A stretch of 64,000 bases of DNA from Flammulina velutipes. Taxonomy: Eukaryota > Basidiomycota > Agaricomycetes > Agaricales > Physalacriaceae. The notes beneath the pieces were generated by a model. The model saw only the letters and a list, made by a program, of their open reading frames with translations, did not search any database and had not been told where the DNA came from. Both the position numbers and the translations under genes were made by a program. The stretch lies in contig CM022377.1 of assembly GCA_011800155.1 (NCBI GenBank), forward strand, positions 620,001 through 684,000, given 5' to 3'. Shown here in pieces: positions 52,575 through 56,576 of the stretch. Position 1 is the stretch's first letter. Every line of letters starts with the position of its first letter.

Positions 52575-53673
52575 TAATGAGCTAGTATAGCTCGAAAGTT
52601 ATCGTTATACTTCATTATTTTGTTCCCACTGTATCACTTGCTCTTTTTTCTTGAATGTACCAATACACTTTTGTACGACTTATTTACTAGTACTTACTAT
52701 GCTTTGCAAAATTTGATTCATTTGCTGTCCTCGTTGGTTTTACGTGCGAGTAACGCTCAGGATGGTACTATTTCACTTGTAGAGAGCGGTGCCCATAGCT
52801 ATCAAGGCGGGCGACGCCACATCAGTGCTATTGATGACGTTGAAATTGTGTGTTCGCTGTAACTCCATCGACCTGGGTACCTGCTTTCCCGTACTCCATT
52901 CGGATCATGTTCTATAGACTCAAATAACATCCCAACTCTTGACACCTTCTTGCGCCATCTGGTCAGAAAACACAAGAGAGTTTCCTGGAGTATTGGTGCT
53001 GAACATCACTGAGATAGATGGCTTCCTGTAACGTTTACTTATGCACTTATGAGTAGAGACGATTTCCGACACCATCCAACTTCTCAACCAACACAGCTCA
53101 ATGAGAACAATGTACATTCAAAAGTACAAAGTCTTATAATCCTCAATTATAACCCACAGAGATATTCTCGATCGCCTCCTTAAAATCTTTCATGAACTGA
53201 GGACTCATCGTCGAAGAAGACACAATGGTCTGTCCACCTCCAGGTGTCGGAACAGTCATCCTCAACGCGCCATCCTTGCTAGCGCCACCAAGCATGCTGA
53301 TACCCGGAGAGTCAGACTCGATAACCGAGCAAGACATTCCGGGCTTGCAGAACATCTTGTGGTTCGTCTTCCAGTCCTCCTTCTGACATTCCTTGCTACA
53401 GTAATAAGGCTTCTTGTCTTCGTCGCATTTTCCGCCACCTAAATTGCAAGGTAAGCAAGGATAACTCGCTTACTGGAAAAGCTTACATTTTTGCAGCATC
53501 TTCCCATGGTCCGCCTCGATCCCACATCCATACATCGCACACTTGTACCTCAACGGATTCTTCATCCTCTTCACACTAGCCTCGGTATCTCTCTTAACCC
53601 TCGCCTCGGCCTCTTCGTCCGCATCCCAAACATGGCTGTAGAAGAAGTTCAACTCCTTGAACATCTTCGTCGC

Positions 53674-53678
53674 CGGAC
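53674..53678 (+). repeat. Target site duplication, left
   Basis: CGGAC immediately precedes the 5' LTR and equals the five bases after the 3' LTR (55222-55226). Confidence 0.85.
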
Positions 53679-53877
53679 TGTTGGATTTTGACGTACATGC
53701 GAGTCGGTGGAATCGGACCGGCCTCATTTACTTACACGCTTTCTGCACGTTTTCTTTCCTTACCGTTTGCCTCGACGTACGTACAGTCTGCTGGTACAAA
53801 CGGATTATTCTTTTGCTTTGCTTTTTGTCTGCTGCCGCCGCTATCTTTTCCACGTCCGCGACTATCGACATCTAACA
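53679..53877 (+). repeat. 5' LTR
   Basis: 199 bp, starting TGTTGGATTT and ending ATCTAACA, so the ends form a short imperfect inverted repeat with TG..CA termini. No difference from the 3' LTR was found on comparison by eye. Confidence 0.92.
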
Positions 53878-53955
53878 CAAACGGTCTACCCGGCTGTGGG
53901 AATACAGTCAACCATTCATCACTCTACTGTCATTATTCGATTCGCTGTCTTTACC

Positions 53956-54900
53956 ATGGCAAAAGGCAACAAGTACTCTGTTGTTATTCTGGAGAAGCCC
54001 TCTGACTTAGCGGACTGGAAAACCACCACGCAAGCCCAGCTTCGTGGAAAAGGTGTCTGGAACGTTGTCGATGGCACAGATCCGGAACCTTCCAACAATG
54101 CAGGAGACCGATGGCGCAAATGGGATGGCCGCCGCAATGTGGCCGCCTCTATCATCATCAGTACCATTGCTCGCTCCCAACTCCCCCATATCCGCAGTTT
54201 GACCAATGACCCCGCTGCAATGTGGGCCCGTCTCATCCAGATGCATCGCACCAATGGCGCTACACATCACATGAGTCTGTGGCAGGATTTCGACGGCTTG
54301 AAGTACGATGGTTCCCGTCCCATGGCTGATCATATCGCCGACTTGCGCTCCATGGCTGACCAGCTGAAGGAGTTGTTCAACGACGGTCCGTCATCTGCCA
54401 AATTCATCGCCACCCTCACGGCGTCGCTACCAACGGAGACAAATTCTGGCTACGCCGATCTTGTCCGATCCCTCGAGGGTGATGTTCTCGAGACGAACGT
54501 TGACCATGTCATTCAACGTGTCACTAACGAGTGGAACCGTCAGGAGAGGTCGAAGAAGAAGGAGACGGAAGTGAAGAAGATGAAGGAGGAGGTGGAGTCT
54601 TCGGAGGATGAGGAGAAGAACGAGGCGCTCATGGCACAGATGGCCGTGGCACTCGCGGGGATGATGCGTCAGCGCAAGAAGAGGACGAAGTCGAAGATCA
54701 CTTGCTTCAAGTGTGGTGGTCGCGGACACGTCAAGAACATGTGTCCAACCCGCAGCGACGACGAAGAAGATGCACATGTAGTCATCGGGCCTGAGAGCTC
54801 AATGCTCGCTGCTGCCGCAAAGTTACTCAGTGTACATTCTGCCATTGGAGACAGTGAAGAGGACGATTCCGACGACGGACATCCAAATGTTGCAGTCTGA
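53956..54900 (+). CDS. gag: Gag-like protein of the LTR element (Copia type, CCHC zinc knuckle)
   Basis: The ORF runs 314 residues from MAKGNKYSVVILEKPSDLADWKT to PNVAV (TGA 54898-54900). The N-terminal part matches the Copia Gag pattern: WKTTTQAQL, then AASIIISTIARSQLPHIRSL, AMWARLIQMH, LWQDFDGLKYDGSRPMADHI and FIATLTASLPT. A charged coiled-coil-like region (RSKKKETEVKKMKEEVE) is followed by a single zinc knuckle, CFKCGGRGHVKNMC, and an acidic tail. The frame is intact, with no internal stop. The ATG at 53956 has an ACC context. Upstream in-frame residues starting in the LTR probably are not translated. The product should form the particle shell and bind RNA. Confidence 0.88.
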   Translation: MAKGNKYSVVILEKPSDLADWKTTTQAQLRGKGVWNVVDGTDPEPSNNAGDRWRKWDGRRNVAASIIISTIARSQLPHIRSLTNDPAAMWARLIQMHRTNGATHHMSLWQDFDGLKYDGSRPMADHIADLRSMADQLKELFNDGPSSAKFIATLTASLPTETNSGYADLVRSLEGDVLETNVDHVIQRVTNEWNRQERSKKKETEVKKMKEEVESSEDEEKNEALMAQMAVALAGMMRQRKKRTKSKITCFKCGGRGHVKNMCPTRSDDEEDAHVVIGPESSMLAAAAKLLSVHSAIGDSEEDDSDDGHPNVAV

Positions 54901-54927
54901 TTCTAGGTTTTATTTTATTTTTCTTTG

Positions 54928-54933
54928 ATGACA

Positions 54934-54962
<29 letters not shown>
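54928..54962 (+). repeat. GAC trinucleotide repeat between gag and 3' LTR
   Basis: A run of GAC/GAT triplets (about eleven units) lies in the non-coding tail of the element, after the gag stop. Confidence 0.7.
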
Positions 54963-54964
<2 letters not shown>

Positions 54965-55022
54965 GATGTCATTTTCTTTTCTACTTACGCTACTTTTTAC
55001 GATTCCTTGACTCGAGGGGATG

Positions 55023-55221
55023 TGTTGGATTTTGACGTACATGCGAGTCGGTGGAATCGGACCGGCCTCATTTACTTACACGCTTTCTGCACGTTTTCTT
55101 TCCTTACCGTTTGCCTCGACGTACGTACAGTCTGCTGGTACAAACGGATTATTCTTTTGCTTTGCTTTTTGTCTGCTGCCGCCGCTATCTTTTCCACGTC
55201 CGCGACTATCGACATCTAACA
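55023..55221 (+). repeat. 3' LTR
   Basis: 199 bp copy of 53679-53877, apparently without any substitution, which suggests very recent insertion. Confidence 0.92.
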
Positions 55222-55226
55222 CGGAC
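55222..55226 (+). repeat. Target site duplication, right
   Basis: CGGAC directly after the 3' LTR, matching 53674-53678. Confidence 0.85.
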
Positions 55227-56576
55227 GAAAGACATGTCGTGTACGGAAGAGGACTGTGGGGATAGAATACCCCGGCACGGCGACGGAACGAGAGTACTGG
55301 ATGGCCTTGTTGGCGTGGTGCATCCCAGCGTAGAGATAACGGACTCGCAGACTTTCACTCGCTGAAGTGTACCACACGACGAGGATGGCGTGTGCCGTCG
55401 CTTTGACGGTGTCGGTCGATCTCGGATGGAATGCAGCTTGAATGATGTACGAACGCGCGGCTTGGCGATCCATCTTGCACCCTACCCCGTAATACAACCT
55501 GCGAACAAGTGTGAGTATACACCCATCAAGTCAAATCATAGCACATACCTAGCACCACAATTCAACAAAGCTGATGGATCGCCATCCGCCGCCTCGCGCT
55601 CCAGCTCGGCGAACGGCTTCTGCGCAATAGTACGCGCGTTCTGCAAAATGGCAGTATATTGTCCAGGTCCCTGGTTCAGTTTTTCCTTCGTATACGGGCG
55701 ACAGTTGTCCAACATCTGTACATATGCCAAGATAGCTGCGTCCGGACTAGTAGTGTCCTGCAAATCATGAGGCGTCGCGCGAACTTGGTAGTCGAACGAG
55801 ATAGACTGGGGGACGAGCATCACCCGACTAACGGCGTCAGGAAATCCCATAGCCCGCACCAGGCCAGCGAAAATTCGGCTGAATGAATCCACAGCGATCT
55901 CGCATGTCGAGGAAGTAGACACTCCGATTTTTTGGATGACCGTACACCCGACACGCCTGAACTCCCGTTCGACAGCCAGAGCGAGTTCTCTGTCCTCCGT
56001 GGTGAGCGTCCAGGGTGCCATAGGCTTGATCTGAGAGGCAGGTAGACCTCCCATGTTGAGGTTCATCCCGCCAACGAAGCCTTTGATGAGCGCTTTGACG
56101 ATCTCCGGAGCGGCTTGAGCAACGGTTTCGGGGAAGAACGCGTGAGACTGCTCATTTCCTGGGGTGGACCCGACAGGGAGATACTCGAGGTGGCAGAAAC
56201 GACTGCCAGGCTGAACGATAGTGAGGATATGGGTAGGAGTTGGCTCCAGGTGCATATAGCGGATGTCGAAGTGCCATTCATTAGGAACCATGCCAGACGG
56301 CATCAACTTGGGACGCGTAAGAGCATTGAACTTTTTGACTACATCTGAGGATGCCATGGTGGAGGTAGAAGTAAGACAAGAGACAAGAGAGGACAGGGGT
56401 GGCCACAGGGAATTTTGACGAACAAAATTTGAAATGGGAAAAATAAAAGGGCACGAAAAGTGAAATTTACTCAGAAACGAAACACAAAATGACCATTTTG
56501 GTCGATAACTCTGGTACCTCTATGCGAAGAGTTGAATCCCCGCTCAATGGTGATAATACGCGCTTCAAGCAGACAT

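Follow-up and report, generated by a model that had tools for sequence, protein, structure and literature searches.

The subject of this analysis is a 1,543-bp long terminal repeat (LTR) retrotransposon at positions 53679-55221 of a window of 64,000 nucleotides from the fungus Flammulina velutipes (assembly GCA_011800155.1, contig CM022377.1, positions 620,001 to 684,000 of the forward strand). We found that its two LTRs are 199 bp each, begin with TG, end with CA and show 0 differences between them, and that a CGGAC target-site duplication abuts both ends, as had been claimed in an original prediction made from the sequence alone. The interior consists of a 78-bp leader, a gag gene (53956-54900) and a 122-bp 3' stretch that holds a GAC microsatellite and a purine tract. 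The same prediction had described an intact 314-residue Copia-type Gag and an interior free of pol. Indeed, Gag matches the Pfam profiles Retrotran_gag_2 and zf-CCHC, and none of six open frames scanned in the window copy, one of them the gag frame read over a longer 397 aa, showed a pol domain at E 0.1. The features of the element are listed here; the 5-copy, C9 and c6 elements named in the list are pol-bearing Copia elements of the same assembly.

53674..53678, no strand: left target-site duplication, CGGAC
53679..53877, + strand: 5' LTR, 199 bp, TGTTGGA...CTAACA
53762..53769, + strand: ACCGTTTG, an 8-nt stretch within the LTR whose reverse complement opens the post-LTR sequence; putative start of R and putative self-primer
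53878..53893, + strand: primer-binding position CAAACGGTCTACCCGG, which differs from the initiator-tRNA site of the 5-copy, C9 and c6 Copia elements
53956..54900, + strand: gag open reading frame, 314 aa plus stop, Copia-type capsid and nucleocapsid (Pfam, predicted fold; open in 3 of 3 copies)
54697..54747, + strand: CCHC zinc knuckle, Gag residues 248-264 (Pfam)
54928..54968, + strand: GAC microsatellite, varying in length among copies; its end, GACGAGGGGATG, is polypurine-tract-like
55010..55022, + strand: polypurine tract ACTCGAGGGGATG, abutting the 3' LTR, in register with the tracts of the 5-copy family (ACTCGAGGGGGAG) and C9 (GGTCGAGGGGGAG)
55023..55221, + strand: 3' LTR, 199 bp, identical to the 5' LTR
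55222..55226, no strand: right target-site duplication, CGGAC

Eight matches came from a DNA search of the whole assembly (38.1 Mb, 23 contigs). Three are complete copies, two cover an LTR only, and the remaining three are 36-39 bp fragments of the GAC microsatellite. The complete copies lie on C10 (the window), C7 (557171-558711) and C5 (420687-422235) and are 99% identical. Those on C7 and C5 are collinear with the window copy and measure 1,541 and 1,549 bp. Each complete copy has TG..CA LTRs, a gag open over 314 aa and a target-site duplication; the three 5-bp duplications differ (CGGAC, GCCTC and TGGAG) and the flanks are unrelated. Several copies of approximately 1.5 kb with different duplications had been anticipated, and three were found. 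The window copy might instead have been a lone deletion among pol-bearing copies. None of the three copies carries pol, so they represent a family rather than one deleted copy, and we rejected the latter explanation. The LTR-only matches lie on C8 (98% identity) and C7 (92%); the C8 solo LTR is bounded by TCCAG on each side, and the older one on C7 has no clear target duplication in its flanks.

The LTRs of the complete copies (199, 198 and 199 bp) are identical inside each copy, with 0 of 596 sites differing (upper 95% bound 0.5%). Together with the open gag frames, this agrees with the young age that had been proposed. Between copies there are two variable sites, a 1-bp indel separating C7 from the other two and a C/T difference (C in the window, T in the others), and both LTRs of any one copy hold the same state at both sites. 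These states are not private, since each solo LTR has the 1-bp-shorter form, and the older of them also carries the C. Reverse transcription rebuilds both LTRs from one template. Because the LTR states agree within a copy but differ between copies, the gag-only form itself was copied, recently, by reverse transcription. It is extremely unlikely that segmental duplication or an assembly error produced the copies: the LTR states are doubled per copy, the 5-bp duplications on C5, C7 and C10 are perfect and different, and the unrelated flanks rule out segmental duplication.

Our data indicate that the element very probably belongs to a young, gag-only, non-autonomous LTR family of the Copia superfamily, of the TR-GAG type, in a fungus. 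The testable features of a TR-GAG are present, namely LTRs with a target-site duplication, a single intact gag, a pol-free interior and multi-copy spread in the gag-only form.

By its sequence, Gag is of Copia type. Residues 26-200 match Retrotran_gag_2 (PF14223; E 4.7e-23, above the curated cut-off) and residues 248-264 match zf-CCHC (PF00098; E 2.5e-5). Structure prediction points to a Copia/Ty1 capsid fold; the best Foldseek match was a Copia capsid (E 9.4e-3), and no match was returned at E <= 0.001. We considered whether the main role of Gag is to inhibit other Copia elements, as with Ty1 p22 or Drt2, and judge this very unlikely. Structures of the Ty1 p22/Drt2 type are capsid C-terminal domains, so a structural match shows the capsid fold only. 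Furthermore, the whole Gag, with its N-terminal part and zinc knuckle, is retained inside an LTR-bounded mobile element.

Outside the gag-only family, the best Gag protein match in the assembly is on C6 (30% identity, E 5.6e-8). A search of 5.8 billion proteins, which admitted only proteins of approximately 173-550 aa, returned no relative beyond Gag itself. A profile search for long polyproteins scored the best 7,992 candidates, chosen by shared words. Two other proteins, P0075 and P0076 (328 and 349 aa, the latter from Ceratobasidium), look like stand-alone Copia Gags with a zinc knuckle and, by eye, no protease; from their sequences they are possible further gag-only elements.

An element without pol must obtain its enzymes from elsewhere. 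The RVT_2 profile matches 11 places in the assembly. Among the pol-bearing elements is a 5-copy Copia family with Gag, INT and RT domains and 305-bp LTRs that are identical within each copy; four of its copies show 0 differences over 5,043 bp, and the fifth is 4,752 bp long. The C9 element is intact, occurs once and has two identical LTRs. The c6 element (C6, approximately 358.0-383.2 kb, minus strand; L055 and L045) has identical LTRs of about 206 bp with AGTCC on both sides. It is split by an insertion of approximately 20 kb inside an SH3-like domain, of which profile positions 1-31 and 33-72 lie in separate open reading frames. Repeats of 24 and 29 bp lie inside the LTR of the 5-copy family (L050:1824-2128).

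In the 5-copy, C9 and c6 elements, GGTTATGGGCCCC directly follows the LTR, and 7 tRNA-like places hold a sequence complementary to its first 12 bases; going by the T-arm motif, we take the partner to be the initiator tRNA. At the polypurine junction, ACTCGAGGGGATG followed by TGTTGGA in the gag-only element matches ACTCGAGGGGGAG followed by TGTTGGA in the 5-copy family at 18 of 20 positions; the C9 tract, GGTCGAGGGGGAG, is in the same register and the c6 tract is similar. This likeness would fit a shared integrase and RNase H, and would also fit plain shared descent. An extra GAGGGGATG, equal to the end of the polypurine tract, lies at window positions 54957-54968, approximately 50 bp upstream of the tract, and might represent a former tract or an additional primer for the plus strand.

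Judged by their intact frames, the 5-copy family and C9 are candidate helpers. The original prediction of mobilisation in trans by a Copia partner thus holds in part: intact candidates are present, but no Copia element of the assembly matches in LTRs, primer site or Gag, so we name no partner. In the cycle that we envisage, RNA would be transcribed from the LTR and translated into a Gag that might form or join capsids. A helper Copia would supply enzymes in trans, the minus strand may be self-primed by the ACCGTTTG of the LTR, and the cDNA would integrate, giving the 5-bp duplications.

Several observations weigh against a young TR-GAG-like family served by such helpers. When the gag-only element was compared with eight Copia loci, the best match beyond the microsatellite was one of 33 bp at the polypurine tract, with E 0.095. 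Identity of Gag to every pol-bearing Copia Gag compared was at most approximately 30%, and the primer site is unlike that of the likely helpers. In the accessible part of a report on mutation screens in Cryptococcus neoformans, no clearly non-autonomous copies were seen moving (PMC12810828). Finally, the gag substitutions fit neutrality. Across the three copies there are 5 nonsynonymous and 4 synonymous changes, against a neutral expectation of 6.25 nonsynonymous (P(N<=5)=0.28), so that purifying selection is not demonstrable with three copies and the gag-dependent spread that had been proposed stays a hypothesis.

The substitution counts are also what would be expected if Gag were a passenger, with the RNA moving by virtue of its LTRs, primer site and packaging signal, a helper Gag building the particle, and the frame intact through youth. 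An open gag frame is expected anyway at such low divergence. However, the profile match, zinc knuckle and predicted capsid fold have been kept despite the great distance from pol-bearing Gags, which suggests longer-term constraint, though a pol-bearing sister may be absent from the sample. We regard a passenger Gag as unlikely, though it deserves serious weight.

Deletion is the usual idea for the origin of such non-autonomous elements. We weighed whether an autonomous family, surviving in other strains and absent from this assembly, recently gave rise to the element by internal deletion. The gag frame ends in HPNVAV, which resembles the HPNVAM found approximately 30 residues ahead of the protease in the 5-copy family. 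We rejected HPNVA as the mark of a single family: N[VIML]A precedes the protease in 8 of 28 proteins with a recognised protease motif (from 148 examined) versus 445 of 5,250 control windows, and the HPNVA type is therefore a common Copia linker motif. Against a recent deletion stand the lack of any pol-bearing close relative in the 38.1 Mb, whether sought by DNA, by Gag protein or by comparison with the eight Copia loci, and the large protein search that returned Gag alone among proteins of the admitted lengths. This origin is, in our judgement, rather improbable.

We next considered how the young TR-GAG-like element may be primed. For CAAACGGTCTACCCGG, which follows the LTR, the longest match was 6 nt among 35 tRNA loci, an incomplete set (some loci identical, 35 of 63 listed, and 63 of 1,373 candidates scored). 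The positive control in this test, the site of the 5-copy family, reached just 5 nt because the initiator tRNA is absent from the set, and the tRNA test is therefore incomplete. Two pattern searches, each requiring ACCGTTTG 5' of a T-arm motif, yielded 5 matches (control 6) and 1 match (control 0). None of these was at a scored tRNA place, and the patterns miss the initiator tRNA, whose T-arm differs; a matching initiator-tRNA control pattern gave 0 matches until the T-arm motif was changed. A longer primer-site pattern with two mismatches was uninformative (167 matches versus 232 for the reversed control).

Within the LTR, ACCGTTTG occupies positions 84-91, after a pyrimidine-rich stretch, and exactly complements the first 8 post-LTR bases. 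It is retained in both solo LTRs, including the 92%-identical one. An 8-nt self-complement arose in 222 of 20,000 shuffled LTRs and, with offsets of 0-3, in 122 of 5,000 (chance approximately 1-2%); by the same measure the 5-copy family reaches 5 nt and C9 4 nt. The folded leader contains the ACCGTTTG pairing, and its overall stability is ordinary (z 0.39; equalled or exceeded by 133 of 200 shuffles). Since the self-complement was sought after the initiator-tRNA site had proved absent, we treat it as a lead only. We tentatively propose, at somewhat less than an even chance, that the ACCGTTTG of the LTR self-primes minus-strand synthesis.

A separate Copia element on C10, at approximately 2298.35 kb (L047:1354-1500), has a 1,814-aa open reading frame and a 12-nt LTR stretch that exactly complements post-LTR bases 4-15. 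The stretch lies approximately 26 nt after the TATAAATA start; of 20,000 LTR shuffles, 8 did equally well. We saw no clear target duplication around this element. Its sequence suggests that this autonomous fungal Copia either primes itself or forms a hairpin.

When the flanks of the window element were rejoined at a single CGGAC, they formed a minus-strand open frame of 170 codons, broken by the element (window 53473-53673 and 55219-55497). The same rejoining gave 172 codons at the C7 site and 120 at the C5 site. Since a frame of the same size exists at C7, a host gene at the window insertion is only weakly indicated, and the element possibly interrupts one. The pieces of the frame had no Pfam match at E 0.01. 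By eye, the left piece (window 53473-53673) contains a Cys-rich motif.

A more elaborate possibility is a stable two-part fungal system, in which an old orphan Gag lineage would combine a capsid of its own with a self-priming leader (ACCGTTTG-CAAACGGT) and would take enzymes from tRNA-primed Copia elements. We consider this speculative and on balance unlikely. If true, it would separate capsid and template from the polymerase, each side with its own mode of priming.

Gag-only LTR elements are already known from plants and brown algae, and their occurrence in a fungus seems to be unreported. A literature search of partial coverage found no fungal TR-GAG or gag-only LTR family; this agrees with the original prediction, which knew of TR-GAG elements in plants and of no clear fungal case, and the brown-algal cases add to it. 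Our data thus extend the range of these elements to a fungus. There are few players here (three gag-only copies and a handful of intact Copia loci), so helper and parasite can be tested pairwise. The element could show if RNA is packaged by the foreign Gag that it encodes, if that Gag admits helper enzymes, and if the type of primer has to match the helper. In the available text on Pleurotus ostreatus, short families Copia_12 (1.4 kb) and Copia_17 (1.0 kb) are listed with coding content unstated (PMC4905642, Table 1); both look too short for pol.

Within the same genome, the 5-copy, C9 and c6 elements share with the gag-only element a Copia-type Gag, TGTT...AACA LTR ends, 5-bp duplications and a TCGAGGGG polypurine tract. 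They differ in having pol and an initiator-tRNA primer site, and their LTRs cannot be aligned with the gag-only LTR beyond the ends. TRIM elements are likewise small and non-autonomous, and as a rule non-coding, whereas the element described here encodes Gag. The term TRIM is in use for fungal annotation, as far as the consulted portion of one source indicates (PMC10067951).

With regard to priming, the self-priming Tf1/Sushi Gypsy elements and the plant Copia elements TAR, Houba and Osr-1 have an LTR or mRNA start complementary to the post-LTR position, as here, although the complementarity here is just 8 nt, with the chance of approximately 1-2% given above. Copia self-priming has been reported in plants (PMC6317226), and the fungal GalEa Copia elements are described as having a hairpin in place of a primer-binding site (PMC5445492), both according to excerpts of these papers.

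The closest parallels are other gag-only elements, compared here from the sections of the sources available to us. In the brown alga Ectocarpus, the Copia families Copia-N1_Ec32 and Copia-11_Ec32 have a single gag-related open reading frame, as here, in a host that is not a fungus (PMC12477816). The Arabidopsis TR-GAG AT5TE33540, reported to transpose in ddm1 (PMC8704663), has two LTRs, a single intact gag and no pol, with mobilisation in trans presumed, as in the fungal element. The plant Gag is 562 aa versus 314 aa in the fungus, AT5TE33540 has a related autonomous family whereas none was found for the fungal element in this assembly, and the primer site of the fungal element differs in being possibly self-complementary.
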